A DNA stretch of 64,000 nt, from NCBI RefSeq assembly GCF_902859765.1, contig NZ_CADIJV010000013.1, forward strand, positions 62,001 through 126,000, read 5' to 3'. The first letter of the stretch is position 1. Each line of letters begins with the position of its first letter. The stretch comes from Achromobacter pulmonis. Lineage in GTDB: Bacteria; Pseudomonadota; Gammaproteobacteria; Burkholderiales; Burkholderiaceae_B. The position numbers and the translations under genes were made by a program. Below the pieces are notes generated by a model. The model was not told where the DNA came from. It saw nothing but the letters and a program-made list of their open reading frames with translations, and searched no databases. Shown here piece after piece: positions 6,600 to 51,660 of this stretch.

Positions 6600-7793
6600 C
6601 TACGGGGCGACGTAATGAATCCAGCCCGAGTCCAGCCAATCCGCCAGGCAGGCGCGGGCGTCATCCGACAGGCGCGCGCAGGCCGGATCGGCGCAGTCCA
6701 GGCTGCGCGCGTCGGCCAGTTTGCACAGCGCGGGCGCGGCCGGCGTCATCGCGGTTTCGCCGTTGATGAAGAGCTGCTTGCCGCGATAGAGCATGCGGCT
6801 GCGGCGGTCCAGCACCAGCCTTCCGGCGGCGGGCCAGTCTTCTTCCAGATCCACCTCCAGGCCTTGCGGGCCATCGAAGACGCTGAGGTTGCTGGGTTCG
6901 GTCAGCCAGCAGCCCAGGAAGCGCGAGGCCAGCGCGTCGTCAAAGCGCAGCTTGCCGACGGTGTCGAGCGTGGCTTGGACCAGCGCGTCCGGCACCTGGG
7001 CCGGCGTGGCCACCGCGGCCTGGGCCGGGTCGCGGTAGACGGCCGACAGCTTGGGGCCGGGCAGCGCCGGTTCGCCGTAGGGGCCGCCCAGCAGCCCGAC
7101 GCGCGCCATCACCTGGTCGGCGGCGGCTTCGAGCAGGCCGCGCGCCAGCGTGGCCTGCGTGGGGGCACGGAAACCGATGGAGATGGTCATGCAGCCGTCG
7201 CCCATGGCGATGCCGTCATGCGCGGCCTGCGGCGGCAGGTAAAGCATGTCGCCCGGCGCCAGCACGGCCTGTTGCTCGGGCTGGAAATGGCTGAGGATCT
7301 TGAGCGGCAGCCCGGGTTCGAGCGACAGGTCCTTCTGGCGCCCGTAGCGCCATTCGCGCTGGCCGGCGGCCTGCAGCAGGAATACATCGTAGCTGTCGAA
7401 GTGCGGGCCGACGCCGCCGCCATGGCTGGCGATGCTGATCATCACGTCGTCCAGGCGCGCATCGGGGATGAAGCGGAACTGCTGCATCAGTTCGGCGGCG
7501 GCATCGCTGTGCAGGTCGACGCTTTGCACCAACAGGGTCCAGTCGCCTTCGTTGTCCTTCGGCAGGCGGGCGAAAGGGCCGCTTTCCATCTGCCATTCGC
7601 CGTTCTCGCGCCAGATCAGGCGCGATTCGACGTCGTCGCGGCGCGCCAGCTTCTTGATCGCGGCAAGGGTGACCGGCGGCTTGAAATCGGGAATGGCCTG
7701 GCGGATCAGCAGCGGCTTCTTTTGCCAGTAGCGGCGCATGAAGTCGTTGGGGCTCTGGTTGCCCAGCAGCGGCAGGGGATGGTCGAGGTTCAT
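6600..7793 (-). CDS. roxA: Ribosomal oxygenase, cupin/JmjC 2-oxoglutarate dioxygenase (RoxA/YcfD type)
   Basis: The protein has 397 residues starting [18 protein letters not shown]. The RoxA signature [14 protein letters not shown] is near the N-terminus. The Fe(II) facial triad is visible as HFD (in [12 protein letters not shown]) and the distal His in [10 protein letters not shown]. coli RoxA hydroxylates Arg81 of ribosomal protein L16 using O2 and 2-oxoglutarate. A winged-helix C-terminal region follows. The ATG overlaps the mutS stop as ATGA (7790-7793), so translation should be coupled to mutS, and any change in mutS transcription caused by the prophage should reach this gene. The frame continues upstream antisense inside mutS; I treat that extension as non-coding. 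Confidence 0.93.
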
Positions 7794-10462
7794 TGCAGGT
7801 GCTTCTTCAGGCGGTAGAGGGCGTCCAGCGCTTCGCGCGGGGTCAGGCTGTCGGGGTCGATGGCGGCGAGTTCCTCGCGCAGCGTGTCCAGCGCCTCGAT
7901 GGTGTCGGCGCGGTCGGCGGCGGCATAGGCCTGCGCATCGGCGTCGGCCGCGGCGGAGAACAGGCCCAGTTGCGGCGTGGGCGCGCCTTGCGCTTCGAGC
8001 CGTTCGAGTTCGCGGGTGGCCTGGCGGATCACGGCGGCGGGCACGCCGGCGCGTTGCGCCACCTGGATCCCATAGCTGCGGCTGGCCGGGCCTTCGCGCA
8101 CTTCGTGCAGGAATACGATGCCGCCAGCCGATTCGGCCGCCGCCAGGTGGACGTTGGCCGAGGCGGGCTGTTCGGCCGGCAGGCGCGTCAGCTCGAAGTA
8201 GTGGGTGGCGAACAGCGTCAGGGCGCGGTTGTGCGCCAGCAGGCGGCAGGCGATGGCCCACGCCAGCGCCAGGCCGTCGTAGGTGGAGGTGCCGCGGCCG
8301 ATCTCGTCCATCAGCACCAGGCTGTTGGGCGTGCTGGCCGCGAGGATGGCGGCGGCCTCGGTCATCTCCATCATGAAGGTCGAGCGCCCGCCCGCCAGGT
8401 CGTCGGCGGCGCCGATGCGGGTGAAGATGCGGTCGATGCGGCCGATGCGGGCGCGCGCCGCCGGCACGAAGCTGCCGATGCGCGCCAGCAGCACGATCAG
8501 CGCCACCTGCCGCATGTAGGTCGATTTACCGCCCATGTTGGGACCGGTGATCAGCAGCATGCGCCGCGCCGGATCGAGCCGGCAGCCGTTGGGCGTGAAA
8601 CGTTCGATGGCCTGTTCGACCACCGGGTGGCGGCCAGCGTCGATGTCGATGTCGGCCTGCTCGGACAGTTCGGGGGCGATCCAGTCGTGGCGTCGCGCGT
8701 GTTCGGCCAATGCGGCCAGAGTGTCCAGCTCGGCCAGCGCGCCGGCGCAGTCGGACAGCGGGCGCACGTGTTCGGCCAGCACGTCCAGCAATTGCTCGAA
8801 CAGCCATTTCTCGCGCGCCAGCGAGCGGTCCTGCGCCGACAGCACCTTGTCTTCCCAGGTCTTGAGTTCCGGGGTGATGTAGCGCTCGGCGTTCTTGAGG
8901 GTCTGGCGGCGGCGGTAGTCTTCCGGCACCTTGGCGGTCTGGCCCTTGGTGACTTCGATGTAGAAGCCGTGCACGCGGTTGAATTCGACGCGCAGGTTGC
9001 TGATGCCGGTGCGCTCGCGCTCGCGCGCTTCCAACTGCACCAGGAAGTCGCCGCCGTCGGCGGCCAGGGCGCGCAGTTCGTCCAGTTCGGCGTCAAAGCC
9101 GGCGGCCAGCACGCCGCCGTCGCGGATCGCCACGGCCGGTTCGGCGGCGATGGCGCGCGCCAGCAGGGCGGCCAGCGCCGGGTCCACCGACAGGTGCGAA
9201 ATCAGGTCATTCAGGCGCGGCGCGGCGGCCATCGGCGCCACCAGGTCGCGCAGCGCGGGCAGCGCGGCCAGCGCATCGCGCAGGCTGGCCAGTTCGCGCG
9301 GACGCACCGAGCGCAGCGCCAGCCGCGCGGCGATGCGTTCGATGTCGGGGAAGGCGTTGAGCGCGCCGCGCAGCGTCTCCAGCAGGCCGGCCGAGCCGAA
9401 GGTCTGCTCGACATCCATGCGGCCGGCCAGCAGCGTCGAGATGGCCTGTTGGCGGGCCTGGGCCGGCGCGTTGTCGCGCAGGGGATGGTGCAGCCAGCGG
9501 CGCAGCAGGCGGCTGCCCATGGGCGTGCGGCAGCCATCCAGCAGCGAGAACAGCGTGGGCGAGTCTTCGCCCGACAGCGTCTGCGTCAACTCCAGGTTGC
9601 GGCGCGTGACCGGGTCGAGCAGTACATACTGGCCGGGCCGCTCGGCCGACAGGCTCTGCACGTGCGCCAGCGCCTGCGACTGGGTGCGGGCGGCATAGCG
9701 CAGCAGCGCGCCGGCGGCGCAGATGCCGGCCGGCATGTCCTCGATGTCGAAGCCGGCCAGCGTATCGGTCTTGAAATGCGCCAGCAGGTGGGCGCGGGCG
9801 CCGTCGCTTTCGAAGTGCCAGTCCGGCACGCGCGAGCGGGCGCCCTCGAACGCGAAGTCGAATTCGGCGCTGTCGGCGCAGACGATCTCGGCCGGCGCGA
9901 TGCGGTGCAGTTCGGATTCGAGTTGTGCCGGCGCGCATTCGGTGACGCGGAAGTCGCCGCTGGCCAGGTTCAGCCAGGCCAGGCCGGCGCGCGGCGCGCG
10001 GGCATTGCCGGTGACGAACACCGCGGCCAGCGCGCGGTCGGCCTTGGCCGGCAGCAGCGCGTCGTCGGTCAGCGTGCCGGGCGTGACGATGCGCACGATG
10101 CGGCGCTCGACCGGGCCCTTGGAGGCGGCTGGATCGCCGATCTGTTCGCAGATGGCGACGGACTCGCCCATCGCCACCAGCCGCGCCAGGTACTGCTCCA
10201 TCGCGTGCACCGGCAGGCCGGCCATGGGAATGGGCGTGCCATTGGACGAGCCGCGCTTGGTCAGCGTCAGGTTGAGCAGGCGCGCGCCGCGCTCGGCGTC
10301 TTCATAGAACATTTCATAGAAGTCGCCCATGCGGTAGAACAGCAGCAGGGGGCCAGCCTCCGCCTTGAGGCGGAGGTACTGCTGCATCATGGGGGTGTGG
10401 CCTGAAAGCTGATCGTCCATTTCGGCCTGTGATTTGGGCTTCTTGCCTTGTGCTACTTGCAT
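7790..10462 (-). CDS. mutS: DNA mismatch repair protein MutS with phage-supplied N-terminus
   Basis: The protein has 890 residues if it starts at the ATG at 10462 ([10 protein letters not shown]); an ATG at 10420 (MDDQLS) gives 876. MutS binds mismatches and small loops and recruits MutL. Domains are complete: the [10 protein letters not shown] start, the mismatch-reading F-Y-E ([10 protein letters not shown], about residue 48), connector, core and clamp, then the ATPase with Walker [23 protein letters not shown] and Walker [17 protein letters not shown]. The first 20 residues before GHTPMM come from phage DNA right of attL. The native start (MNSATQTTAADAHA joined to GHTPMM) lies 41 kb away at 51729. 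The uninterrupted gene would encode 884 residues. The chimera should be functional, because nothing past residue 20 is altered. Confidence 0.96.
10383..10402. other. attL: attL core (20 bp) inside the mutS coding region
   Basis: TGCATCATGGGGGTGTGGCC is identical to 51668..51687 and the flanks differ immediately on both sides. On the minus strand it encodes G-H-T-P-M-M of MutS. The left flank is mutS; the right flank is phage DNA leading to the integrase. Confidence 0.95.
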
Positions 10463-10493
10463 TTCCACGGGGAAAGTTGGGTGAATCGTGTTG

Positions 10494-10522
10494 CTTATAT
10501 GGCCCAGCAACGCCCATCAAAA
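10494..10522 (-). promoter_or_regulatory. Candidate phage-borne promoter for the chimeric mutS
   Basis: On the minus strand a -10-like TATAAG (10494-10499) stands 17 bp from a weak -35-like TTTTGA (10517-10522). Transcription would begin about 25 bases before the ATG at 10462. This DNA is on the phage side of attL. Only the -10 is good, so the call is tentative. Confidence 0.4.
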
Positions 10523-10543
10523 CCCGCCAACACTTGCCGGTTT

Positions 10544-10614
10544 GGCGTAGGTTTTGGAGGGGTCGAATTGAGAAGTTACGCCGCTTGGGATAGGATTCTC
10601 GCAAAAGTTACGCC
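10544..10614. promoter_or_regulatory. Candidate integrase arm-binding sites
   Basis: AAGTTACGCC occurs twice as a direct repeat (10573-10582 and 10605-10614), 32 bp or about three helical turns apart. A related inverted copy, GGCGTAGGTT, lies at 10544-10553. A near-identical GGCGTAGCTTTTG lies at 51620-51632, beside attR. Repeats at both phage ends beside the core are the usual layout of arm-type sites for integrases with an N-terminal DUF4102 domain. Confidence 0.5.
10568..10596 (+). promoter_or_regulatory. Candidate integrase promoter
   Basis: TTGAGA (10568-10573) and TAGGAT (10591-10596) are 17 bp apart, 36 bp before the integrase ATG. The element overlaps both AAGTTACGCC repeats, so integrase binding could repress its own gene. 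Confidence 0.5.
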
Positions 10615-10631
10615 AGAGAATCCACCGCCCT

Positions 10632-11915
10632 ATGCAATTCGACGCCCGCGCCGCCAAGCTGCTTGAACCAGGCCGACACCTTACCATTGATGGCTACCCG
10701 GGGCTGCGCCTGGAGGCCTCCGCGACCACAAGAACCTGGATCTACCGATACAAGAGTCCGGTGAACGGAAAGATGCGCCAGAAGAAGCTGGGGCGGTGGC
10801 CAGCCATGTCAATTGCCGGGGCTGTTGTCGAGTGGGAAAAGCTACGCCAGCAGCGCGAGGCAGGCATCGACGTGGCGGTAGAAGCCAAGCAGCAGCGCCA
10901 GGCCGCCAAGGCCGCCGCGGTGGCGGCCCAGGAGAAGGCGAAGGGGGCGTTGACGGTGAAAGATGCCTGCGACCTGTACCACGCCGGCCATATCAAGCAC
11001 CATCGGAGCCTGAAGGGGCAAGTTGAAATCGCGCGGACTTTCCGAACGATGTTGGGTCCGCTTGCCGACAAACCCGCCGAGGCCGTCACACGGGCCGACG
11101 CGTTCGCCCTGATTGAATCGTTCGCCCACATCCCTGTGCAGGCTCAGATCCTACGCCGCGAACTGGGGGCGGCCTGGGACTATTGCCATGACGCGGGCAA
11201 GCTGCCTGAAACCGTGCCGAACTGGTGGAGGGCGATCCTCCGGGGAAAGCTGAAATCGAAAGGGAAGGCGATCAATGGCAAGAAGAGTGGCGTCAAGAAG
11301 CGTGTGCTGTCGCCGGCAGAGGCAGGGGAATTGATCCCCTGGTTGCCTAACTTTTCGCGCGACGTGGAAGATTTTTTGACGCTATATCTCTGGACTTGCG
11401 CCAGAGGTGCCGAAATCGGAGCGATGGAGGCCGAGGAAATCTCGGAAGAGGCTGATGGTCTGTGGTGGACCGTGCCAAAAGAGAAAACGAAGAATGCGAA
11501 GCGGGCGGAGGCCACGGATTTCCGCGTCCCGCTGGTCGGTCGTGCCGAGCAGGTTGTTAGACGTCGGAAGGCTGCATACGAGAGCGGCTACCTGTTCCCG
11601 TCCTATGGAAAGTCCGGCCACTGGGAACAAAAGTCAGTTCAGACGCGGGTTTACTACCATCAGCCCTATAGCGAAACGTCGCCGCACAGGAAGCGTGTCC
11701 GCTTGACAGTAACCCATTGGGCTCCTCACGACTTGCGGCGCACGTCGCGTACGTTCCTGGCTTCGCTGGGATGCCCGCGGGAAGTGGGCGAGGTAATACT
11801 GGGCCACATGCTTCCAGGCGTGGAGGGTGTCTACAACCGGCATGCGTATGACGACGAACGTCGCCTGTGGCTCGGGCGGCTGTCCAGTTATCTTGAGCAT
11901 CTAGCGGCGAATTAA
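10632..11915 (+). CDS. int: Phage integrase, tyrosine recombinase (DUF4102 type)
   Basis: The protein has 427 residues starting MQFDARAAKLLEPGRH. The N-terminal DUF4102-like domain (about residues 1-90, with GYPGLRLEAS and KKLGRWPAMSI) binds arm sites. A SAM-like core-binding domain follows, then the catalytic domain with R in WTCARGAEIGAM, H-x-x-R in HDLRRTSR, the second H in LGHMLPG and the nucleophile Tyr in GVYNRHAY. It should integrate and excise the prophage at the 20-bp core in mutS. It is the first gene inside attL and points inward, the standard position. Confidence 0.95.
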   Translation: MQFDARAAKLLEPGRHLTIDGYPGLRLEASATTRTWIYRYKSPVNGKMRQKKLGRWPAMSIAGAVVEWEKLRQQREAGIDVAVEAKQQRQAAKAAAVAAQEKAKGALTVKDACDLYHAGHIKHHRSLKGQVEIARTFRTMLGPLADKPAEAVTRADAFALIESFAHIPVQAQILRRELGAAWDYCHDAGKLPETVPNWWRAILRGKLKSKGKAINGKKSGVKKRVLSPAEAGELIPWLPNFSRDVEDFLTLYLWTCARGAEIGAMEAEEISEEADGLWWTVPKEKTKNAKRAEATDFRVPLVGRAEQVVRRRKAAYESGYLFPSYGKSGHWEQKSVQTRVYYHQPYSETSPHRKRVRLTVTHWAPHDLRRTSRTFLASLGCPREVGEVILGHMLPGVEGVYNRHAYDDERRLWLGRLSSYLEHLAAN

Positions 11916-20019: not shown

Positions 20020-20691
20020 CTAGAACTCCCGGTACTTGCTGGGCATGAGCACGGAGCCGATAGCGTGGACTTGATGGACCTCGGGTAGAGGAAGGGTCAG
20101 TCGAGTTCCGCCATTAACGGATTGCACCGTGTAGGCGTCACCTCCCTGGAAGAGAAATTCTTTAACCATCTTGCGCCCATCATTAAGCGCAATGGCTACA
20201 TATTCGCCGGCTGCGGGCGAAGAGTTGGGTTCGACAACTACGTACCAGCCATCTCGGATAGCGGGGAACATGCTGTCGCCACGAACCCGTAGCGCATACG
20301 CGTCCGGGTCGGATGAATGAGCTTCTACAAAGCCATCTACGCCGCGCGTTTGCACCTCTTCATACCAACCGTTCTCCCCAAGGCGCGCATAGCCCACCAC
20401 ATGGATCTTCGATGCGGACGGGCGCTTGGGACGTTCTGCGACTTGACCTGCCAAAGGCTCGCCATCGCCGTCAGCGAGCCATCGGGCGCTCACTCCATAG
20501 ACGTACGCAAGCCTGGCGGTGTAGGTGGACGATGTCGATCCATTGTTTTCAAGATCCGATAGCGTCCCCTGGCTCATACCAGCCTTGTCCGCCGCCTGCT
20601 TCTGTGTAAGGCCGGCCGCCTTTCGGGAAAGCTTTAGCCGAGCGCCGAAAGTGTCGGCGGGGTTTTGGGCGAGGAGAGTTAGCAAGAGCAT
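20020..20691 (-). CDS. cI: CI-type repressor with S24 autopeptidase domain
   Basis: The protein has 223 residues starting MLLLTLLAQNPADTFGARL. The HTH is LTQKQAADKAGMSQGTLSDLE (about residues 28-48). The LexA-like S24 domain carries the catalytic Ser in GDSMFPAIRDG and the Lys in KMVKEFLF. A linker with VVGYARLG stands where self-cleavage occurs in relatives. It maintains lysogeny by binding ATCGAT-type operators; RecA-stimulated cleavage would induce the phage after DNA damage. It is divergent from cro. No clear ribosome site stands before the ATG, so the maintenance transcript may be nearly leaderless. Confidence 0.94.
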   Translation of the reverse strand: MLLLTLLAQNPADTFGARLKLSRKAAGLTQKQAADKAGMSQGTLSDLENNGSTSSTYTARLAYVYGVSARWLADGDGEPLAGQVAERPKRPSASKIHVVGYARLGENGWYEEVQTRGVDGFVEAHSSDPDAYALRVRGDSMFPAIRDGWYVVVEPNSSPAAGEYVAIALNDGRKMVKEFLFQGGDAYTVQSVNGGTRLTLPLPEVHQVHAIGSVLMPSKYREF

Positions 20692-20720: not shown

Positions 20721-20757
20721 TTTATCGATTGACCGAATATCGATTAATCGATATTCT
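20721..20757 (+). promoter_or_regulatory. Rightward early promoter and CI/Cro operators
   Basis: TTGACC (20729-20734) and TATTCT (20752-20757) are 17 bp apart. The 20-bp sequence 20736-20755 (AATATCGATTAATCGATATT) is a perfect palindrome covering the spacer and -10. A second ATCGATT site lies at 20723-20730. Transcription would start about at the cro ATG (20765), so the cro message is leaderless or nearly so. Confidence 0.75.
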
Positions 20758-29202: not shown

Positions 29203-29685
29203 ATGCCAGGAGTTGCTGGGCGCTCCGGGCGCAAGCCGAAGCCGGCGGCAAAGAAGCTGGCGGCGGGCAACCCGGGAAAGCGTGCGATCAATAACGACGC
29301 GCCGTCATATGGCGAGATAACAAACGTCTTCGCGCCTGAATGGTTGCAGGGACACGGGCGCGATCTGTGGGAACACTTGGCGCCGCTGTTGTGCCGTGAA
29401 AAGATCCTGCAGGCCACCGATATCCAAAACCTGGAAGCCTACTGCGCCGCCTATGGCAGGTTCCGCTGGGCGGAAGAGGACATTCAGAAGAATGGAATCG
29501 TGGTGGCTGGCTCGCAGGGCGGACCGCTGAAGAACCCTGCGGCGACCGTCGCCAACGAGGCGTTGAAGCAGATGGCGACCTATGGCGCATTTCTCGGGCT
29601 CGACCCGTCCAGCCGGCAGCGCTTGCAAGGGCCGAAGAAGGCCGGCAAGGGGAATCCCTTCGCCGCGCTGCTGGGCGGAGGCTGA
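29203..29685 (+). CDS. terS: Terminase small subunit, P27 family
   Basis: The protein has 160 residues starting MPGVAGRSGRKPKPAAKKLA. The GRSGRKP and NPGKR starts, then PEWLQGHGRDLWEHLAPLL and the ATDIQNLEAYCAAYGRFRWA helices, are the P27 family pattern. The C-terminus has the usual SSRQRLQGPKK. TerS binds the packaging site and brings it to the large subunit. It lies 3 bp before terL. Confidence 0.94.
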   Translation: MPGVAGRSGRKPKPAAKKLAAGNPGKRAINNDAPSYGEITNVFAPEWLQGHGRDLWEHLAPLLCREKILQATDIQNLEAYCAAYGRFRWAEEDIQKNGIVVAGSQGGPLKNPAATVANEALKQMATYGAFLGLDPSSRQRLQGPKKAGKGNPFAALLGGG

Positions 29686-29688
29686 CTG

Positions 29689-31407
29689 ATGGCCGCGCCC
29701 CAGTACCCACGGGTGGCGCAGGCGCTGAAATTTGCAAAGGACGTTGTGAAAGGCAAGGTTCCGGCCTGCCGCTACGTTGTCCTGGCCTGCCAGCGCCACC
29801 TGGATGACCTTACCGCCAGCAAGGTGGCGAAATATCCGTATCGATTCAATGCTGCCGAGGCAGAAAAAAAGCTCGCGCTTATCGAGTTGATGCCCCATAC
29901 AAAGGGGGAATGGGCGTTCAAGCGTCAGTTGGTGACGCTTGAACCTTGGCAAAAGTTCGGCTTGGCGGCAACGTTCGGTTGGGTGAAGAAAAAAGGCGGT
30001 TTGCGCCGCTTTCGCGAGTCCTATTGGGAGGTGCCGCGTAAGAACGGCAAAAGCGTGATCGCCGCGGGCGTCGGGATATCGATGTTCGTGGCTGATGATG
30101 AGTTCGGCGCCGAGGTGTATTCGGGGGCGACCACCGAAAAGCAGGCCTGGGAGGTGTTCCGGCCCGCGCGCTTGATGGTGCAGCGTTCCCCTATGCTGAT
30201 TGAGCATATGGGCATTGAGGTGAACGCGCAGGCGTTGGCCAGGCCGGAGGACGGCAGTCGATTCGAGCCGGTCATCGGTAATCCGGGAGACGGAGCCTCC
30301 CCATCCTGTTCAATCGTCGACGAATACCATGAACACGACAGCGCGGCCTTGTACGAAACCATGCTGACCGGCATGGGCGCGCGCCGCCACCCGCTGATGT
30401 TCATCATCACCACGGCCGGCGCGAACATCGAGGGCCCGTGCTACGACAAGCGCCGCGAAGTAATCGAGATGCTTGAGGGCCTAGTGCCCAACGATGAGCT
30501 TTTCGGCTGGATCTGGACGCTGGATGAGGGGGACGATTGGACGGACCCCAAGGTCTTGGCAAAGGCGAACCCCAATATGGGCGTCTCCGTTTATGCCGAC
30601 TACTTGGTAAGCCAGCAGCAACGCGCCATAAAGCAGGCGCGTTTTACCAACACGTTCAAGACCAAGCACTTGAACGTGTGGGTGACGGCGAAAGCGGGTT
30701 TCTTCAACCTGCAACAGTGGGAAGCCTGCAAGGACGAAACGTTGACGCTGGAGCAGTTTGAGGGGCAAAACTGCATTCTCGGTTTCGACTTGGCGCGCAA
30801 GCTGGATATGAACAGCATGGCGCGCGTCTTCTACCGGGACATCGACGGCAAGCGCCACTACTACAGTGTGGCCCCGCGTTTTTGGGTTCCGGAGGATACG
30901 GCCAACGATATCGAGAACCGCCGAATGGCGGAGCGGTTTCAGAAGTGGATCAATACGGGGCATCTGTACACGACGGAAGGCGCGGAGATCGACTATCGCG
31001 ATATTCACGCAGAGGCTTTGGATGCGAACCGGCTGAACGCTGTGGAGCAGTCGCCGATAGACCCGAGTGGGGCAACAAACCTCTCGCATCACCTGGACGA
31101 TGATGGGCTAACCCCCGTCACCATCGTGCAGAACTACACCAACATGAGCGATCCCATGAAGGAACTGGAGGCGGCGATTCAGTCCGGCCGTTTCCACCAT
31201 GACGGAAATCCCATCATGACCTGGTGTATCAGCAACGTTATTGGCAAGAACCTGCCCGGTAACGATGACGTGGTGCGTCCCATCAAGCAAGGCAACGACA
31301 ACAAGATCGACGGCGCGGTGGCGCTGATCATGGCCGTGGGCCGCGCAATGCTGCCTCCGGTGGCACCGAGCAACCCCTACGGCAAACGTGGATTGAGAAC
31401 GCTCTAA
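29689..31407 (+). CDS. terL: Terminase large subunit (ATPase and nuclease)
   Basis: The protein has 572 residues starting [20 protein letters not shown]. The ATPase has Walker [14 protein letters not shown] (about residue 115), preceded by LEPWQKF, and Walker [11 protein letters not shown] (about 205), with ITTAGAN as the coupling motif. The RNase-H-like nuclease has [10 protein letters not shown] (about 365) and the closing DGAVALIMA. It translocates DNA into the prohead and cuts it. The family is Terminase_1, typical of HK97-like phages. The TAA overlaps the portal start as TAATG. Confidence 0.97.
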
Positions 31408-32633
31408 TGGCTTGGTACTCGAAATTTCTTCCGATGTCGAAGAAGGCGGCATCGCCGCCGGAGGTTATTGACAGCCCCGACAAGCTGGCGGCCTTCTTGG
31501 GCGGCGTGCAAACGGGCGCCGGCGTTGCGGTGTCAATGCGCGCGGCGATGCAGTACTCGGCCATGATGTCTTGCGCTCGCGTGATAGCCGAGGATATTGG
31601 CAAGTTGCCGCTGCACCTGTACGAGCAGGACGGTCGAATGCGCGAACGGCTGGCGGATGACCCGTTGTCCACGCTCCTGAATGTCGCGCCCAATGAGTTC
31701 ATGACCGCGCGGGAATTCTGGGAGACCTGCGGTCTCCACTTGGCTCTGCGAGGCAACTTTTACGCCTGGAAGAATGTGGTGCGCGGTACGGTCCGCGAGT
31801 TGCTGCCACTACATCCTGGCTCTGTCGTTCCGAGGCTGCGCAGTGATTGGTCAGTGGTCTACCAGGTCACCTTTCCCAACGGAAAGGTCGACATCTTGCC
31901 GCAGGATGCGATTTTTCACGTTCGCATCCTGAGCATGGACGGACTGAACGGATTGGACCCAATAACGTACTTCGCGCGCGAGGTGCTGGGAGAGGCAATC
32001 GCCGCTGACCGCCAGGCGCAAGGAATGTTTCGCCAAGGCGCGAAGCTGTCCGGGGTGCTCTCGACTGAGGGGACGCTGAATGATGACGCCTACGCTCGCA
32101 TCCGAGAAGACTGGGAACAGACATACGGCGGGGTGGAGAATGCCTACAAGGTTGCGATCCTCGAAGGCGGGCTGAACTTCAAAGAAATCAGCATGACCAA
32201 CGAACAGGCGCAGTTTCTGGAGCAACGCAAGTTCAAGCGCGGTGAGATGGCGGGGCTATATCGGATTGCACCGCACAAGATCGGCGACCTGGAACACGCG
32301 ACCTTTTCCAACATCGAGCATCAAAGCCAGGAACATGTGACCGACTGCCTTATGCCGTTGGCTACCAAGATCGAAGCCCGCATTCGGGTGTCGCTGGTGC
32401 CAAAGGACCGCAGAAATCGAGTTTTTGCCAAGTTCAACATGAACGCCCTGCTACGTGGCGACATGACGGCGCGGGCCAACTACTACACCAAGCAAATCCA
32501 GAACGGCGTTTACTCACCCAACGACGTGCGCGAGCTGGAGGACGAGAACCCCCGGGACGGCGGGGATATCTACCTCACGCCTTCCAATATGTTGATCGAC
32601 GGGAAAGTGCCGGCGGCGCCGGCGAAGGAATGA
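31407..32633 (+). CDS. Portal protein, HK97 family
   Basis: The protein has 408 residues starting [20 protein letters not shown]. The pattern SARVIAEDIGKLPLHLYE, then HPLS.LL.V.PNEFMTAREFWE, GNFYAWK and DPITYFAREVLGEA is the HK97-type portal (PF04860). A dodecamer forms the DNA channel at one vertex of the head. It overlaps terL by one base and precedes the protease by 1 bp. Confidence 0.96.
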   Translation: MAWYSKFLPMSKKAASPPEVIDSPDKLAAFLGGVQTGAGVAVSMRAAMQYSAMMSCARVIAEDIGKLPLHLYEQDGRMRERLADDPLSTLLNVAPNEFMTAREFWETCGLHLALRGNFYAWKNVVRGTVRELLPLHPGSVVPRLRSDWSVVYQVTFPNGKVDILPQDAIFHVRILSMDGLNGLDPITYFAREVLGEAIAADRQAQGMFRQGAKLSGVLSTEGTLNDDAYARIREDWEQTYGGVENAYKVAILEGGLNFKEISMTNEQAQFLEQRKFKRGEMAGLYRIAPHKIGDLEHATFSNIEHQSQEHVTDCLMPLATKIEARIRVSLVPKDRRNRVFAKFNMNALLRGDMTARANYYTKQIQNGVYSPNDVRELEDENPRDGGDIYLTPSNMLIDGKVPAAPAKE

Positions 32634-32634
32634 T

Positions 32635-33273
32635 ATGGAAATCAAACGCATCTCTGTGCCCTTCGAAATCAAGGAAGTGGCGGACACCGGAGAGTTCATC
32701 GGATACGCGTCGGTCTTTGGCGTGAAGGATGCCTACGACGAGATCGTGGTCCCCGGCGCCTTTGCCGACTCCATCGCGGACTGGAAAGGGAAGAACGCGA
32801 TGCCGCCCATTCTCTGGCAGCACCGCAGTGGAGAGCCCATCGGTGTGCATACCGAGATGCGCGAGGACTCGGTGGGGCTGTACATCGAGGGAAAGCTGGT
32901 GATGGGCGTTTCGCGCGCCCAGGAAGCACATGCGCTCATGAAGGCGAAAGCCGTTCGCGGGATCTCCATCGGCTTCGTCACACGAGAAGACAGCTTTGAT
33001 CGCGTGAGCGGGGTCCGGTCCCTCAAGCGTGTGGACCTCTGGGAAAACTCCATCGTGACGTTCCCGGCCAACCCTGCGGCGCAGGTTACGGGCGTCAAGC
33101 GGCTGCAAGAGGCCGACAGCATTCGGGACTGCGAGGCCTACCTACGGGATGTGGCGGGTATGTCGCAGTCGGAGGCAAAGGCATTCGTGTCTCGCCTCGC
33201 CGGTATCTCTCAACGGGATGTTGAGAGCGTCCAGGCGCTGCAACGGCTGAAATCTGCCATGCGCCTCTCGTAA
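32635..33273 (+). CDS. Prohead protease, HK97 family (S78)
   Basis: The protein has 212 residues starting MEIKRISVPFEIKEVADTGE. It has the S78 layout: GYASVFGVKD, ILWQHRSGEPIG with the catalytic His, and KAVRGISIGF with the catalytic Ser (about residue 110), followed by the VDLWENSIVTFPANP strand. It removes the delta domain of the capsid protein during maturation. It is followed by a terminator-like hairpin and the capsid gene. Confidence 0.95.
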   Translation: MEIKRISVPFEIKEVADTGEFIGYASVFGVKDAYDEIVVPGAFADSIADWKGKNAMPPILWQHRSGEPIGVHTEMREDSVGLYIEGKLVMGVSRAQEAHALMKAKAVRGISIGFVTREDSFDRVSGVRSLKRVDLWENSIVTFPANPAAQVTGVKRLQEADSIRDCEAYLRDVAGMSQSEAKAFVSRLAGISQRDVESVQALQRLKSAMRLS

Positions 33274-33295
33274 GTGGCTTTCAACGCAACCAATC

Positions 33296-33321
33296 AAGGC
33301 CCGCCAAGCGCGGGCCTTTTT
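33296..33321 (+). terminator. Hairpin between protease and capsid genes
   Basis: AAGGCCCGC/GCGGGCCTT is followed by TTT, 23 bp after the protease stop. Probably a partial terminator or a processing point that sets the high capsid-to-protease ratio. Confidence 0.7.
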
Positions 33322-33338
33322 CATTTCAGGAAGGAAAT

Positions 33339-34529
33339 ATGGAACTGAAACAGATCATCGAAGACCTGGGCCGCTCGTTCGAAGAATTCAAGAGTGCCAA
33401 CGACCAACGTCTGGCCAAGCTCGCCAAGGGCGAAACGGTCGAATCGCTGGAAGCCAAGCTGGCGAAGATCGACGCCGACATCAAACGCCTGGACGACCTG
33501 AAGTCGGCCGTGGAAGACCTGGAAAAGCGCGCCAATCGCATCGGCGTGCCCGGCGCCGAAGACCCGGAAGCCGCTGCCTACAAGTCCGGCTTCGACAAGT
33601 TCATGCGCAAGGGCGACTCGTCCGAGATCGAGCAGAAGGCCATCAATACGGGCACCGAGGCCGATGGCGGCTATGCCGTGCCGGAGCAACTGGATCGCCA
33701 GATCATCCAGTTGCTGCGCCGGACGACCGCCATGCGCGATCTGGCCCGAGTTATCACCATCGGCACCCCCGACTACAAGAAGCTGGCCAACCTCGGCGGC
33801 GCGGCCGGCGGCTGGGTCGGCGAAGAGGACGCCCGTCCGGAGACCGCCCATCCCAAGCTGGGCCAGGTATCGGCCTACATGGGGGAAATCTACGCGAACC
33901 CCGGCGCCACGCAAACCTCGCTGGATGACGTGTTCTTCAATGTCGAACAATGGCTGAACGAGGAGGTGAACATCACCTTCTCGGAGAAGGAAAACGCGGC
34001 GTACACGTCCGGGGACGGCGTGAAGAAGCCGAAGGGCTTCCTGGCCTATCCCGTCGCGCTGACCAAGGACGGCACGCGACCCTTCGGCACCATTCAGGTG
34101 GTGGACACCGGAACGGCCGGAACTTTCAACGGCGACAACCTGATCGACCTGGTGTACGAGGTCAAGAAGGGCTATCGCCAGAACGGCAAGTGGTCGATGA
34201 CCACGATGGGCCTGAAGATGGCCCGCAAGCTCAAGGACGCCGAAGGCAACTATCTGTGGCAACCGGGCCTGCAGGCCGGCGAACCGTCGTTGCTGCTGGG
34301 CTATCCGGTCGTCGAAAACGACGACATGCCGGACCCCGTGGCCGATGCGTTGTCCGTGGGCTTCGGCGACTGGAAGCGCTTTTACACCATAGCCGACCGC
34401 ATCGGCACGCGCATCCTGCGTGACCCGTATACCAACAAGCCGTATGTGCATTTCTACACCACCAAGCGTGTCGGCGGCATGGTCGAGGACTCGCAGGCCG
34501 TCAAGCTGCTGCGTCTGAAGGCGGCTTAA
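33339..34529 (+). CDS. Major capsid protein, HK97 fold
   Basis: The protein has 396 residues starting MELKQIIEDLGRSFEEFKSA. The first ~95 residues form a charged coiled coil, the delta scaffolding domain that the S78 protease removes. The mature part begins near GTEADGGYAVPEQLD and has the family blocks TTAMRDLARVITIG, GGWVGEEDARPETAHPKLG and QVSAYMGEIYANPGATQTSLDD. The C-terminus ends in a strand DSQAVKLLRLKAA. GGAAGGAAAT precedes the ATG. Confidence 0.96.
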   Translation: MELKQIIEDLGRSFEEFKSANDQRLAKLAKGETVESLEAKLAKIDADIKRLDDLKSAVEDLEKRANRIGVPGAEDPEAAAYKSGFDKFMRKGDSSEIEQKAINTGTEADGGYAVPEQLDRQIIQLLRRTTAMRDLARVITIGTPDYKKLANLGGAAGGWVGEEDARPETAHPKLGQVSAYMGEIYANPGATQTSLDDVFFNVEQWLNEEVNITFSEKENAAYTSGDGVKKPKGFLAYPVALTKDGTRPFGTIQVVDTGTAGTFNGDNLIDLVYEVKKGYRQNGKWSMTTMGLKMARKLKDAEGNYLWQPGLQAGEPSLLLGYPVVENDDMPDPVADALSVGFGDWKRFYTIADRIGTRILRDPYTNKPYVHFYTTKRVGGMVEDSQAVKLLRLKAA

Positions 34530-36368: not shown

Positions 36369-36802
36369 CGACTCCCATTGTTATCGCCGGTGCCAGCGTT
36401 GCTTTATGTGCCGATGTTCCGCGAGTCGTGGGGCCGGGTGCGTTTGATTCGCTGGCGTTCATCCCTATTCGAGGCGTGCGGGTCTCTGGCTCGCTTGTGC
36501 TTCAGTACCAGACTGCCGCCTTCCATGCCCTGGGAAGCGCTGCGCCATTCCAGCGCCGGGTGGCTCGGGCGCCCCAGACTTTGCAACTGGAGCTTCTGCG
36601 TCTGGTCGACCCAGGACAGGCCATGGTGCGGCAGGCTGTCGGGCTGGATAAGCCCTACAGCTACCGCATCACGCTGCCGCGCGTTGGGGCGCATTTCTTC
36701 GTTGCCCGCGCCTCAAGCCGTTCCCTCTCAGTCGGCAGTGCCACCGACCTGGCCGGCGTGACGGTCACTCTTGAACTGGAAAGCCAGATTGTCGAGCCGT
36801 AG
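36365..36802 (+). CDS. Hypothetical tail protein
   Basis: The protein has 145 residues starting MTTPIVIAGASVALCADVPR. It is beta-rich, with PFQRRVARAPQTLQLELLRL and ITLPRVGAHFFVARASSRSL. I recognise no family. It lies just before the tail tube gene and starts within the DUF3168 stop (ATGA). A tail-terminator or tube-associated role is possible from position. Confidence 0.65.
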   Translation: MTTPIVIAGASVALCADVPRVVGPGAFDSLAFIPIRGVRVSGSLVLQYQTAAFHALGSAAPFQRRVARAPQTLQLELLRLVDPGQAMVRQAVGLDKPYSYRITLPRVGAHFFVARASSRSLSVGSATDLAGVTVTLELESQIVEP

Positions 36803-36853
36803 CAGGCCGCTACATCCATTTCCGTCGTCTGCCCGCTTTGGGCAAAACCTACA

Positions 36854-36876
36854 GCCCGCGATAGCGGGCATTTTTT
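36854..36876 (+). terminator. Terminator before the tail tube gene
   Basis: GCCCGC/GCGGGC with a GATA loop, then six T residues. Confidence 0.88.
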
Positions 36877-36899
36877 CGTTCAATGCAAGGAGCTTAGAC

Positions 36900-37547
36900 A
36901 TGTCTGTCTCTCTTCCGAACGGTGTTGTCCTGTCGCTCGCGACCGGCTACGCCAATTCGAAAGCCATTTCGGCGATCACCAACGCCAATCCCGCCGTCGC
37001 CTCCAGCGCGGCTCACGGCCTGGCCAATGGCGCCCTGGTCGAACTGAAATCCGGCTGGCAAAAGCTGAACGAGCGCATCTTGCGCGTCGCGGATGCCGCT
37101 GCTGGCACGTTCGCCCTGGAGGGTATGAACACCCTCTCGCCGATCCAGTTCCCGGCCGGCACCGGGGGCGGTTCCGTTCGCGAAATCACCACCTTCACGC
37201 AGATTTCGCAGATCCTGGAAGTGTCCACGTCGGGCGGCGAAATGCAGTTCGCCACCTACAGCTTCCTGGAAAACGACTTCGAAGCGCAGATCCCGACGCA
37301 AGCCAGTGCGCAGTCGCTGGCGATCACCATCGCCGACGATCCCTCGCTGCCCGGCTACAAGGCGCTCCAAGCCGCCGCCGAACTGCGTGAAGTGCGCGCC
37401 CTGCGCGTTGCGTTCCCCAATGGTTCGGTGCTGCTCTACAACGGCTACGTGTCGTTCAACGAGACTCCGACCATGACCAAGGGCGAAGTGATGGGCGTGC
37501 AGGCCACCTTTTCGCTACTGTCGCGGCCCGTTCGCTACGCCGCGTAA
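36900..37547 (+). CDS. Major tail tube protein
   Basis: The protein has 215 residues from the ATG at 36900 (MSVSLPNGVVLSLATGYANS), with AAGGAG upstream. It has the two-domain pattern of siphoviral tube proteins: a beta sandwich to about residue 155 (TFTQISQILEVSTSGGEMQF), then a second part with GYKALQAAAELREVRALRV and a closing strand. It is isolated by hairpins on both sides, fitting its high expression. The next gene is the tail chaperone. Confidence 0.87.
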   Translation: MSVSLPNGVVLSLATGYANSKAISAITNANPAVASSAAHGLANGALVELKSGWQKLNERILRVADAAAGTFALEGMNTLSPIQFPAGTGGGSVREITTFTQISQILEVSTSGGEMQFATYSFLENDFEAQIPTQASAQSLAITIADDPSLPGYKALQAAAELREVRALRVAFPNGSVLLYNGYVSFNETPTMTKGEVMGVQATFSLLSRPVRYAA

Positions 37548-37575
37548 TTTCCAAGGCCGGCCAAGCGCCAGCCTA

Positions 37576-37606
37576 CGGGCCGCCCACGGACGGGTGGCCC
37601 GTTTTT
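37576..37606 (+). terminator. Terminator after the tail tube gene
   Basis: CGGGCCGCCC/GGGTGGCCCG with a short loop, then five T residues, 28 bp after the stop. Confidence 0.88.
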
Positions 37607-37634
37607 CCCAATTCTCTATTTTTCGGAATCTCTC

Positions 37635-37952
37635 ATGGCAAAGATCAAGTTCACCCTCACGCCCAATCCGACCTTCAAGCACAAGGTGCCGATGCCCATT
37701 CCGGGTGGTGCGTTCGCGGATGTGGAGTTCACCTTCAAGCACCGCGGCAAGGAGGAATTCACCGAGTTTCTGGAGCGCGCCAAGGACATGGACGACACCG
37801 ACCTGGTGCTGGCCATCGCCAGCGGCTGGGAACTGGAAGAGCCGTTCGACAAGGACAACGTGGGTCAGCTGGTCGAGAACTACGTCGGCGCGGCCCGCGC
37901 CATCTTCACGGCCTACATGGACGAAATCGTCAAGGCCCGCCTGGGAAACTGA
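37635..37952 (+). CDS. Tail assembly chaperone, short form (G-like)
   Basis: The protein has 105 residues starting MAKIKFTLTPNPTFKHKVPM. It is acidic and helical, with FTFKHRGKEEFTEFLERAKD. It is the short product of a frameshift pair; such chaperones coat the tape measure while the tail forms. The last codons contain the slippery heptamer at 37943-37949, just before the TGA. Confidence 0.87.
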   Translation: MAKIKFTLTPNPTFKHKVPMPIPGGAFADVEFTFKHRGKEEFTEFLERAKDMDDTDLVLAIASGWELEEPFDKDNVGQLVENYVGAARAIFTAYMDEIVKARLGN

Positions 37953-38260
37953 CCTCGCTGGGTGCGGCGCTCTACCGCCGGCCTCCAGATGTGAAGGAAC
38001 TGGAGGCATTCGGCCTTACGCCGGAAGACGTAGAGGCGCCGCCTGTCGAAATATGGCCGGAGAGCCAGCAGGCGTTCGAAATATTCGCTTCGCTGCGGAC
38101 CCAGTGGCGGGTCAGCTTTGCCGGCGTGACCGGCCTGGACTATGGCGTTCTCTATCGCAGGCTTGACCGTCTTGGCTTGTCTGCCGAGCGATACGACGAG
38201 TTGGAAGACCAGATCCGCGTCCTTGAGGATGCGGCGATGCAGGAAATAAATCGCAAGTAG
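37635..38260 (+). CDS. Tail assembly chaperone, long form by -1 frameshift (GT-like)
   Basis: At 37943-37949 the sequence G-GGA-AAC is read in the zero frame, an ideal X-XXY-YYZ slip site. A -1 slip avoids the TGA and continues through GKLTSLGAALYRRPPDVKEL into the frame that ends at 38260, giving about 208 residues. The downstream part (KELEAFGLTPEDVEAPPVEI) has no good start of its own beyond a GTG at 37991 and no ribosome site. Lambda G/GT works the same way with GGGAAAG. Confidence 0.85.
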
Positions 38261-38295
38261 CCGCCTATGGGTGGCTTATCTTTTTGGAATGTGTC

Positions 38296-41200
38296 ATGAC
38301 TGATGAACTGGCCAGAAGTGTTATCCGGGTCGATGGTGACGCGTCCGGGCTGACTGCGGCCATGGCCGAGGTGACACAGGAAACCGGCAAAGCCAAGAAG
38401 TCGCTCGCAGCGTTGGGGCGTGACGCATCGCAAGGGATGACCAAGGCGGCCGAAGAGGGCACGCAGGCCGGCCGCAAGCTGGAGCGGGCCACGCAAAGCC
38501 TGGTGAACCAGATTGAGCGCCAAATTGCCGTGACCGGCGCGGGCGCACGCGGAACCGCCTCCTACTATGTGGAACTGGCAAAGCAGCGCGGCATCGACGC
38601 CAATCAGCTGAAGCCCTATCTGGACCAGCTTGAGGCCGTGACGCGCAAGCAGGCCGAGGCCAAGGCCGCGATCCAGGCCACCGCGCCGGCGGTCGAGCAA
38701 ATGGGCATGTCGGCCAAGGCCGCCGCTGCGGCAATGCGCGGGCTGCCTGCCCAATTCACCGACATTATCGTGTCGTTGCAGGGCGGTCAGCGTCCCATGA
38801 CGGTGCTGATGCAGCAGGGCGGCCAGCTGAAGGACATGTTTGGCGGTCTTGGTCCCGCTGCGCGGGCGATGGGTAGCTACATTGCCGGCCTGGTCAATCC
38901 GTTCACGCTGGCCGCCGGTGCGGTGGCATTCCTGGGGGCGGCCTACCTGAAAGGGGTAGACGAATCCCAGGCGTTTAACCGGACCGTCATTCAAACGGGC
39001 GGGGTTGCGGGCGTGACGGCCGGCCAGCTGCAGGACATGTCCCGCCGTGTGGGCGATGTGGCCGGCACGCAGGGAAAGGCGGCAGACGCGCTTAAGCTCT
39101 TTGCCAGTTCTGCCAAGGTCGGTGCGGAGAATATGGAGCAGTTCACCGCGGCGGCGGTGCGCTGGGAGAAGGTCACGGGCGCCGCCGTTGCCGATACGGT
39201 GCAGAACTTCATCGAGTTGGGGAAATCGCCGCTGGAAGCGGCCCTCAAGCTCAATGAGGGCATGAACTTCCTGACCGCGACGACGTATGAGCAGATCCGC
39301 GCGCTGGAGCGGCAGGGCAAGACCGCCGAGGCGGCGAGCGTGGCCCAGCGTGCCTATGCCGACGCGCTCAACGACCGCGCGCCCAAGTTGTCCCAGAATC
39401 TCGGGCTGCTGGAGCGTGCCTGGAAGGGAGTGAGCGACACCGCCCGTGGGGCCTGGGATGCGATGCTTGATATCGGCCGCGCCGGCACGCTTGAAGAGCG
39501 CATTGCCAAGCAGGCTGCGACCGTTCAAGCGCTGGAAAGCAAGCTTCAGGCTCGATTGGCTCGCGGTGCTGCCACCGGCAACATGGCCGATCTGATCAAG
39601 GCTGCCGCGACCGAACAGGAGCGACTGGAGCGCGAGTATTTCGAGGCCCAAGGCAAGGCGCAGGCCGAGCGGGACCGCCGCAAGGCGCTGGACCAGACGC
39701 AGTTTCGCGCCGACTACCTGGAGGACGACAGCCGCAACACGAAGCCGCAACAGCGCCAGCGCGCCATCGAGAAGGAGGCGGCGGCATTCCGCAAGGCGGC
39801 GGAGGGCCTGAAGGAAGGCACGGACGAGTATCGCCGGGTCTACGCTGCCCACAAGGTCAAGCTGGCCGATATCGACAAGCAATTTGAGGATAAGGATGCG
39901 GGCAAGGGCCCGTCCGGTGCCGAGTCGGAAATAGCTCGCCTGCGTGCCCGGATCGCAGAAGAAAGGGCGCTCGCGGTCGAATTGGACCAGCGCGGCTTGC
40001 ACACGAGCAAGCTGAACGAGTATGAGCGGCGCTCGGCGGAAATCGGCGAACTGCTCAAGGGGAACCTCAAATCCCAGGTGCGGGCCAGCCTGGAGCGTAC
40101 CAAGGCGCTGGCGACCGAGGCGGGAGCGCTGATGCGTGCCAACGCGGAGACGAAGGCTTTCCAAGAGTCCCGCGAGAAGTATTTCGCCAGCCTGGAGGAC
40201 GGCGTAGCCAAGATCGCTCAAGAGGCGCAAAGCGTTGAAGACCAGGTTGCCACCTATGGCCTGAGCAAAGCCGCGCTGGAGCAGTTGACGATCGCGCGCC
40301 TGGAGGAACGCAAGGCCGCGCTCCAGGGGTTCGACGGCTCCGAGCGGGAAGTCGAACTCATCGAGAAGGAAATCGAGGCACGCAAGCGCTTGGGAGCCGC
40401 AATCCGGCAGAAGGACATCAAGGACGCCCAGAAGAAGGCGACCGACGAAATGGCGCGCGACTGGGAGCGCACCGTGGACAAGTACGGTGACGTGTTCCGC
40501 CAGGGCTTTGCCGACATGTTGAACAACGGCAAGGATGGCTGGAAGTCGTTCACGAAGTCGCTTGTCACGACGTTCAAGACGACTGTGGCGGACCAGATCT
40601 ATCGGATGTTCGCCCAGCCGTTCGTGGCGACCATCATCGGCAACCTGGCCGGCGTGATGGGCAGCAGTGCGGGCGGCGGGGGCTTGGGCGGTGTGGCTGG
40701 CGCTCAAGGTGCTGTCGGCGGTGGGCTGAGCTTAATGAACGCCCTGAGCGTTGCGCGCACCGCCTATAGCGCCCTGACCGGGGGCTTCACGGCAACGCTC
40801 GCCTCGGGCATCTCCTCTATCGGCAGCGCGATTGGATCCTCGGCCGCGCAGCATTTTGCCCTGGGGATGACCGGCCAGGGGGCGAGCTTAGCGGCCGGCC
40901 TTGCCGGTCCGACGACGGCGGGCAGTTCGGCCGCCGCTGCTGGGTCCATGATGGCAAGCGCGATCCCGGTGGCTGGCTGGATCGCCGCGGGGATGATGAT
41001 CAATCGCTCGCTGTATCGGGCAGGCTGGGATGCGGGCAACGGCACCATGGCGCCGATTGCCAAGTACAACCCGATTACCGGGCCCTCCCTATGGACCGAT
41101 AAGGCGCTGCGTGCCGTGGGCGTGGGCGGTGAGTGGGCGTCGATCCTGTCGGGTTCGTCGCTTATCGCTCGCGCCTTCGGGCGCGGTGCCAAGCAGTACG

Positions 41201-43893: not shown

Positions 43894-44780
43894 AAGTGAT
43901 CAAGCCGGCTTCTATTGGCCGCGATCAGTTGGTTTCGTCCAGCGTGCCCGAAGATGAGTACGCCACCTATAACCCCTCCATTGATTATCCAGTGGGGGAG
44001 AAGGTGGTGTACGACTCCAAGGTGTACGAGTGCGTCCAGACGCCGAACAAGGGCAATACGCCGGGGGCGGCGCCGCTGTACTGGGCGCTGGCCGGACCGA
44101 CGAACCGATGGGCAATGTTCGATAGCGAGGTAAGCACGCAGACGATTGGCGACAGCCCGTTGCGCGTGGTGGTGCGCCCTGGTTTGGTCAACAGCCTGGC
44201 ACTGCTGGAACTCGTTGGGACGAGGGTTCATGTCGTCGGTCGCGAGGGTTCGGATGGGCCAGTTCTCTACGACACCGAACGCGTACTGGAAGGGTCGATA
44301 GTGACCAACTGGTACGAGTACTTCTTCGAACCGTTCTCGCCTCTGACGGAGCTTGTCCTTACCGACCTGCCGGCCTATGGCAGCCTGCATCTTGACGTGT
44401 CGATCTTCGCGCCGGAGGCGCAAGCCGCGTGCGGGGCCATGGTCTGCGGCACCGCCTATTTCATTGGCGAGGCGGAATACGGCGGCAGCGCTGGGATTGT
44501 CGACTACAGCCGCAAGGAAACCTCGGAGACAGGCGTTACGACGTTCCGCAAACGCCGGTTCTCGCGTCGTATGTCGCAGCGTCTGTGGCTTGAGGGCGCG
44601 CGGTTCGCGGCCGTATATCGGCTCCTGTCTGGACTTCGCGCCACTCCCTGCGTTTGGATCGGCACGGACGCGGAGGGCTACGGCCCCTTGACCGTCTACG
44701 GCTTTTATCGGGACTTTTCCATCGATATCGCATATCCCCTGGTGAAGTTCTGCAACCTTGAAATCGAAGGACTTACTTGA
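43890..44780 (+). CDS. Tail tip protein with carbohydrate-binding-like module
   Basis: The protein has 296 residues starting MKVIKPASIGRDQLVSSSVP. Residues about 25-70 (YNPSIDYPVGEKVVYDSKVY, then ECVQTPNKGNTPGA) match the CBM5/12-like module found in phage tail proteins: an aromatic-lined loop with a 'Y-x-x-G-x-x-V' core. The remainder is beta-rich, with a Cys-containing QAACGAMVCGTAYFIGEAE. It lies between the tape measure and the fibre and probably belongs to the tail tip. Confidence 0.75.
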   Translation: MKVIKPASIGRDQLVSSSVPEDEYATYNPSIDYPVGEKVVYDSKVYECVQTPNKGNTPGAAPLYWALAGPTNRWAMFDSEVSTQTIGDSPLRVVVRPGLVNSLALLELVGTRVHVVGREGSDGPVLYDTERVLEGSIVTNWYEYFFEPFSPLTELVLTDLPAYGSLHLDVSIFAPEAQAACGAMVCGTAYFIGEAEYGGSAGIVDYSRKETSETGVTTFRKRRFSRRMSQRLWLEGARFAAVYRLLSGLRATPCVWIGTDAEGYGPLTVYGFYRDFSIDIAYPLVKFCNLEIEGLT

Positions 44781-44781
44781 T

Positions 44782-49141: not shown

Positions 49142-49336
49142 ATGGCGGATGTGTCGGACTGGCAGCAGAGGGATGAGTACTACTGGGCGGGGCCTGGAGG
49201 CTGGACGATCTGCAAGGTGTTCGCGCAGAACCGCTGGCAGTACGAAGTCTGGGGAGCGAACGGCACGCGCCACGGCATGGAGCCGACTCTGGCCGCCGCG
49301 ATCACGCTTTACGACAAGGTCAAGCCGGCGGCATAG
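49142..49336 (+). CDS. Small phage protein under SOS control
   Basis: The protein has 64 residues from the ATG at 49142 (MADVSDWQQRDEYYWAGPGG). It is Trp/Tyr-rich, with WTICKVFAQNRWQYEVWGAN, a compact beta protein in appearance. No family recognised. It stands downstream of a consensus -10 overlapped by a LexA box. Small SOS-controlled phage proteins are often antirepressors or inhibitors; this one could trigger induction, but that is inference. It is convergent with the SRAP gene and overlaps its end by 17 bp. Confidence 0.7.
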   Translation: MADVSDWQQRDEYYWAGPGGWTICKVFAQNRWQYEVWGANGTRHGMEPTLAAAITLYDKVKPAA

Positions 49337-51568: not shown

Positions 51569-51660
51569 GCTAGTACAACAAAAAGTCCAGGCGCTTAGCC
51601 AAAGTTGAGAGTGGTTTTTGGCGTAGCTTTTGTTTTTTCTTCAAAATCTTCCTATGGAAG

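Follow-up and report, generated by a model that had tools for sequence, protein, structure and literature searches.

A siphophage-type prophage within mutS of Achromobacter pulmonis carries a replacement in-frame start for the gene

Introduction

Mobile elements inserted at the HTPMMQQ codons of the mismatch-repair gene mutS were reported from hundreds of Beta- and Gammaproteobacteria by Chu et al. (2017, mBio, PMC5296598), and here we describe a ~41-kb siphophage-type prophage that sits within mutS of Achromobacter pulmonis, at 10383-51687 of the 64,000-nt stretch of DNA that was analysed (hereafter the window). The elements range from 4 to over 150 kb, some are prophages, and they give mutS a new start and upstream region (PMC5296598). 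Excision without a frameshift was detected by polymerase chain reaction (PCR) in Escherichia coli 536, Pseudomonas putida F1 and Burkholderia multivorans CF2, and in Vibrio splendidus 12B01 excision leaves a 2-bp frameshift and a hypermutator; the authors further suggested that mutS changes over between two control regions when the element excises (PMC5296598).

In B. pseudomallei MSHR305 the putative prophage GI8c lies at mutS with a 15-bp repeat, ACGCCGATGATGCAG (PMC2612704). Integration of the SpyCI elements of Streptococcus pyogenes silences mutL, which in strain Manfredo is rescued by a promoter within the int pseudogene (PMC3430984). At dusA, a lacZ fusion showed that the gene is still expressed, at a reduced level, when occupied by IMEVchUSA3 (PMC8409611).

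The element of the window belongs to the group of Chu et al., and its arrangement is already published: insertion at HTPMMQQ, int next to mutS, an element-borne start, an orphaned host start opposite and, for some members such as that of CF2, a prophage nature (PMC5296598). When joined in silico its empty site is intact, which sets it apart from 12B01 and agrees with what was found for E. coli 536, P. putida F1 and B. multivorans CF2. GI8c resembles it in being a putative prophage at mutS whose repeat overlaps the same codons, and differs in that no replacement start is described in the accessible text (PMC2612704). A first-pass annotation of the window had named SpyCI as the precedent for a phage taking control of mutS. 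The comparison stands in that SpyCI, too, is phage-like and sits at the 5′ end of a gene for mismatch repair; it breaks down in that SpyCI integration silences mutL (PMC3430984), whereas here the mutS reading frame of the lysogen is intact, which is not the arrangement of a SpyCI-type mutator switch. The elements at dusA and prfC come closer, as do those at mutS described by Chu et al., who had already published the idea of a control switch in outline, although IMEVchUSA3 (dusA) and SXT (prfC) are mobilisable and conjugative elements with other target genes (PMC8409611).

Results and discussion

Integration within mutS

The element is bracketed by two copies of a 20-bp core, TGCATCATGGGGGTGTGGCC, which encodes the GHTPMM codons of mutS and thus places the insertion point at HTPMMQQ. 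Both copies were re-read and do not differ by a letter, as the first-pass annotation had reported. Exact 20-mer repeats are expected by chance at ~0.007 in 64 kb; however, an exact-repeat scan found a second, unrelated pair in host DNA (52111/63358), and the length of the repeat is therefore not decisive by itself. The prophage call is settled by position, since the core pair brackets a prophage running from the integrase to its right end and both flanks match mutS. Integration within mutS is confirmed. One could suppose instead an assembly artefact or a chance repeat, given a 5.67-Mb draft of 91 contigs and another 20-bp repeat close by. We attach practically no credence to this, because the window (positions 62001-126000) is interior to one 139,658-base contig and junctions of the same type, both on one contig in each case, are found in six further Achromobacter genomes that carry this integrase family.

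The gene set is that of a temperate siphophage, with an integrase, an S24-type CI repressor, O- and P-like replication proteins, a spanin, head genes and a long non-contractile tail identified by Pfam or PHROGs (Table 1). This bears out the earlier description of a siphophage in mutS, and from its gene content the element looks like a complete siphophage-type prophage. When the host flanks are joined in silico they yield an 884-aa MutS with one terminal stop only, and precise excision would therefore be scarless.

The coding start supplied by the element

On the phage side of attL the mutS frame continues for 20 further codons to an ATG at 10460-10462 on the minus strand, as had been noted from the letters, and translation gives an 890-aa MutS with five Pfam domains and no internal stop, only the terminal one. 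The element thus provides an in-frame start for mutS and the lysogen retains an intact MutS reading frame. The replacement segment is 20 codons long in each of seven aligned Achromobacter elements. In E. coli MutS the N-terminal stretch is a short flexible tail, which fits a tolerance of replaced residues. At attR the host start, MNSATQTTAADAHA-GHTPMM, with its ATG at 51727-51729 on the minus strand, remains as a stub of 22 codons that ends in HR-stop, and resembles the native mutS starts of unoccupied Achromobacter genomes.

We consider it very probable that these features have a single explanation, in which a temperate Achromobacter siphophage integrates by its tyrosine recombinase at the 20-bp core in the GHTPMM codons. 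Integration would sever the host promoter and the first 14 codons of mutS, and the replacement ATG and 20 in-frame codons carried between the core and the divergent int would leave the lysogen with an intact MutS reading frame and a changed N-terminal tail; precise excision would then restore native mutS scarlessly. Such phages probably keep the segment so that the host is not made a mutator, which suggests that phages in mutS must bring a coding start of their own. The sequence shows the anatomy, the reading frame, the scarless site on joining in silico and the recurrence of the arrangement across the family, whereas mutS expression from the phage side, active excision and the motive for retaining the segment are inferred.

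Table 1. Positions in the window of the prophage, its attachment sites and the two mutS starts.
Feature	Position	Strand	Remarks
Hybrid mutS of lysogen	7790..10462	-	890 aa; phage-supplied start and host body; Pfam MutS I-V all matched
attL core	10383..10402		Encodes GHTPMM codons of mutS; letters same as 51668-51687
Phage-supplied replacement 5′ end of mutS	10403..10462	-	20 codons, then GHTPMMQQ
Divergent intergenic region, mutS start to int	10463..10631		Contains TTTTGA (10517-10522) and TATAAG (10494-10499)
Candidate integrase arm-type site TTGGCGTAGGTTTTG	10542..10556	+	Exact motif match; similar sequence in relatives' left arms
Candidate integrase arm-type site CTGGCGTAACTTTTG	10602..10616	-	One mismatch
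Tyrosine recombinase (integrase)	10632..11915	+	427 aa; Arm-DNA-bind_3 above cut-off, Phage_integrase just below; PHROG integrase; divergent from mutS
KAP-family P-loop NTPase	11967-13748		Directly after int
CI-type repressor with S24 peptidase domain	20020..20691	-	Pfam/PHROGs
Palindrome TATCGATTAATCGATA, candidate operator	20738..20753	+	Beside cI; sole other match in window at 19887-19902
Terminase small and large subunits, portal, head protease, major capsid	29203..34529	+	Pfam/PHROGs
Major tail protein, 1869-aa tape measure, tail fibre	36771..46227	+	Siphophage-type tail; PHROGs/Pfam
SRAP (SOS response associated peptidase) family gene	49320..50066	-	Near right end
Right-end open reading frames	50200..51517	-	Read away from attR
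Candidate right-arm integrase site TTGGCGTAGCTTTTG	51618..51632	+	Exact motif match
Orphaned host mutS start	51661..51729	-	MNSATQTTAADAHAGHTPMMHR then stop; native form seen in unoccupied Achromobacter
attR core	51668..51687		Letters same as attL core
Displaced native mutS promoter candidate	51730..51749	-	GGCCCGATACAATCACGGGC; TACAAT ends 7 nt ahead of ATG

Conservation of the frame among related elements

Relatives of the integrase were collected with their flanking DNA. Among 37 loci, 34 include the 5′ end of the integrase gene and 26 of these (21 distinct elements, after the duplicates L004, L007, L008, L009 and L020 were dropped) have the mutS core, read as the TPMM codons, within 700 bp. 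A second set comprised the best 80 of 205 relatives in IMG/VR, of which 46 were cut at int and left unscored, 28 have the core codons and 6 lack them by the strict motif; two of these six show a variant, ETPMM or HTPVM, and the variant-motif loci L147 and L211 were excluded. The 21 and 28 elements together make 49, of which 42 are left after merging at 85% identity over 120 nt, one of the 42 being from a deposited phage genome.

A start codon (ATG, GTG or TTG) is open into the core in the mutS frame in 42/42 elements, against 6/42 and 22/42 for the other two frames. For ATG alone the counts are 33/42 against 5 and 6. Moreover, no element has a stop in the mutS frame within 12 codons before the core (0/42), compared to 17/42 and 9/42 in the other frames. 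On the 3′ side of the core, mutS runs 853-893 aa to its stop in all 11 of the genome-contig loci that contain it. Junctions resembling attP, with non-mutS sequence after the core, were seen in 10 of the 49 element sequences, among them the deposited Acidovorax phage Aval, which has an ATG...HTPMMH-stop stub next to int at the record's left end. The 42 non-redundant elements form a comparative set on the keeping of a host coding start inside an attachment site, and can serve equally the question of whether lysogens differ in mutation rate.

Candidate control regions on either side of the element

The control region of mutS in the lysogen should lie between the replacement ATG and int, unless it is inside int. 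The first-pass annotation had proposed a promoter there from TTTTGA-17-TATAAG, which is present as letters upstream of the ATG. This part of its account, and with it the phage-side promoter in its claim that repair is kept through a substitute start, did not hold up, although the in-frame start and intact reading frame did. The pair scores near chance and is not supported as a mutS promoter; the promoter scan gives none in the mutS direction at this place. The best match to a sigma-70 matrix, whose scores were compared with shuffles, pairs this TATAAG with TTGATG at a spacing of 15 nt and exceeds the shuffles by only 0.5 standard deviations. When six other Achromobacter elements are aligned, TATAAG is found in the near-identical L005 only and is missing from the other five. 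TTTTGA lies within a block that is well conserved among these siblings, more than a promoter hexamer needs, near the candidate integrase arm sites.

Signals of phage control were also sought. The palindrome beside cI, a single candidate CI operator picked by eye, has no match near attL at ≤3 mismatches, and no LexA-like box occurs at ≤2 mismatches in 10383-10640; one with 2 mismatches lies at 51563. No Rfam family reached its gathering score in 9000-53000. Control of mutS by the phage repressor was set aside for this one palindrome. These results bear on the proposal that the phage start makes mutS follow the phage state or growth phase, with a mutation rate that changes on induction or in stationary phase. 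Such switching has precedents in 12B01, with its frameshift and hypermutator (PMC5296598), and in SpyCI at mutL (PMC3430984), and the phage-side start adjoins candidate integrase arm sites, so that intasome formation could affect transcription. However, joining the host flanks gives back an intact native mutS, neither the candidate CI palindrome nor a LexA-like box is found by the phage start, and Chu et al. observed no frameshift with the elements of E. coli 536, P. putida F1 and B. multivorans CF2 (PMC5296598). Moreover, because the prophage carries an S24-type CI and head and tail genes, induction would be expected to lyse the cell and should normally end in lysis, not in a surviving mutator state. 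We judge the proposal improbable.

At the other end of the element a block, CCCGATACAAT[CT]ACGGGCATG (written also CCCGATACAAT[CT]ACGGGC), with inverted flanks, abuts the native mutS ATG. It was found in the window at 51730-51749 and in Achromobacter loci L068-L108. Locating the starts by protein in these 41 loci shows an exact copy of the block in 34/34 intact native starts and 6/8 orphaned starts, and both deviating blocks are in orphaned copies (genome G025 and the broken copy of G032). Since TACAAT ends 7 nt before the ATG, the native mutS RNA is perhaps nearly leaderless, and to judge from its letters the block is a possible leaderless promoter. The open reading frames at the right end of the prophage could be read from this displaced host promoter. 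Integration exchanges the native mutS control region for a putative phage-side one; the reduced expression of dusA under IMEVchUSA3 is an experimental parallel (PMC8409611).

Several observations weigh against the explanation that we favour, in which the element supplies a replacement start for mutS. Of the 34 integrase relatives, 8 are not beside the mutS core. Over the 42 elements the best sigma-70 matrix score has a mean z of -0.22 (standard error of the mean 0.15), compared to 0.46 on the antisense strand, and inspection by eye found no ribosome-binding site common to the aligned siblings. Seven Achromobacter elements give 21 pairwise comparisons of the replacement codons, 20 of them with changes; in these 20 the ratio of non-synonymous to synonymous substitution rates (dN/dS) varies between 0.23 and 1.39. 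This variability suggests that constraint is mainly on the frame and not on the residues; the signal is weak, and no claim of purifying selection is made. Lastly, the integrase of the element in genome G036 is broken into three frames, and not every such element is therefore active.

Architecture of the attachment site

The candidate arm sites share a motif which, at ≤3 mismatches, has 9 matches in the window against 3.39 expected, a number reached in 1/100 shuffles; the motif was derived from the two arms themselves and the match is thus partly circular. Integration host factor (IHF) has the consensus WATCAANNNNTTR, with 9 fixed positions, and sites matching 8 or 9 of these were taken as candidates. 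In 22/42 elements (including L022, L024, L025, L029, L031, L034, L163 and L199) a candidate precedes the TPMM codons by exactly 36 nt, in phase with the mutS frame, and 18/42 have another at -66 or -67. At least one of the two is present in 26/42 and neither in 16/42; at any other offset from -150 to -13 there is at most 1 match. The arms of the window's own element contain none at ≥8/9, and its Achromobacter group and some others likewise lack them. In many relatives, then, the replacement codons appear to double as attP architecture with candidate IHF sites. We found nothing in the open-licence literature on IHF in the att sites of mutS elements, and the position of the site within the replacement codons may be a new detail of the family, though not of the window's element.

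The same sites lend themselves to an opposite reading, in which mutS of the lysogen has little or no expression and its frame stays open as a side effect of constraints on the att site. A candidate IHF site inside the in-frame segment of 22 elements constrains the DNA for another reason, no phage-side promoter rises above chance, and IMEVchUSA3 lowers dusA expression (PMC8409611). Against this, the start is open in the mutS frame of every element and in fewer in the other frames, stops near the core are absent from that frame, and mutS is intact in all 11 long occupied loci; the IHF consensus itself would not dictate which frame is open. We regard this reading as highly improbable. The explanation in which the segment is kept as a coding start also leaves room for a second role, whereby the segment would act as both the first codons of mutS and part of the phage recombination site, such that transcription of mutS from the phage side would be physically blocked once the excision complex assembles. 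Consistent with this are the candidate arm sites just upstream of the start and, in 26 of the 42 elements but not in the window's own group, the candidate IHF sites at a fixed distance within the codons or directly ahead of them. We offer it tentatively, as a minority possibility; if true, it would tie mismatch repair to the recombination state of the element.

Occurrence in Achromobacter and beyond

The first-pass annotation had suggested a search of other genomes for phages at the GHTPMM codons, and such insertions were readily found. Including the window's own genome, mutS is split in 8/43 Achromobacter genomes, seven times by the window's integrase family (G000, G014, G018, G025, G030, G034, G036) and once (G005) by a different tyrosine recombinase, which the window's integrase does not match at E ≤ 1e-60. 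With the window's genome (G000) and one genome without a match to the native start (G023) set apart, 41 others were read: in 33 the native start is still joined to mutS, in 1 (G032) an intact gene is accompanied by a remnant, and 7 are cut at HTPMM, six of them by this integrase family. Roughly one species genome in five is thus split in mutS, which should be borne in mind when strains are compared for mutS or mutator status. No report of an Achromobacter mutS prophage was found in the open-licence literature.

Counting the window's own genome each time, its integrase was matched in 10/268 genomes of the family (E ≤ 1e-60), 7/399 of the order (E ≤ 1e-90) and 3/369 of the class (E ≤ 1e-40). The two non-self matches in the class, 33% identical and from other orders, also adjoin mutS with an ATG-led HTPMMQQ start. 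The mutS-adjacent relatives span 33-97% identity.

A tree of 57 integrases, with loci cut at int omitted and near-identical ones merged, contains 46 at mutS and 11 elsewhere, and the insertion site seems to have changed within the family. As the tree is only midpoint-rooted, no direction of switching is claimed. Same-family integrases whose upstream region is not mutS include L023, L028 (phage KS9), L032, L203 and L210, and several of these non-mutS integrases share, by eye, another common target sequence.

Other observations

Within the prophage, the KAP-family NTPase gene 3′ of int is a possible accessory or defence gene. In G005 (L116 1-2344, L117) the different recombinase is 329 aa long and mutS seems to begin with a GTG that overlaps the stop of an element open reading frame (GTGA), so that the gene may be translationally coupled to the integrase operon. 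This recombinase has two relatives in the 399 order genomes, one of which (L215, 51%) also adjoins mutS.

The mutS start of G023 (L115, 11288 onwards), MQAGQAKTQKSRAAGDESLNG, resembles the phage-supplied starts and has no phage gene visible alongside; the similarity ends just upstream of the ATG, and a Cas3 gene and CRISPR-like repeats lie upstream of the start. Either an element acquired its start from a host of this kind, or the host has retained one that an element brought. In G032 (L081) a broken native start (MN-stop) lies 4.4 kb upstream of the intact native mutS, separated from it by an IS3-like transposase and an S24 repressor, and is apparently an old element remnant beside a restored gene. 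In G030 (L092) part of the native mutS start region recurs ~350 bp away from the copy at attR, a hint that elements have inserted at the mutS site more than once.
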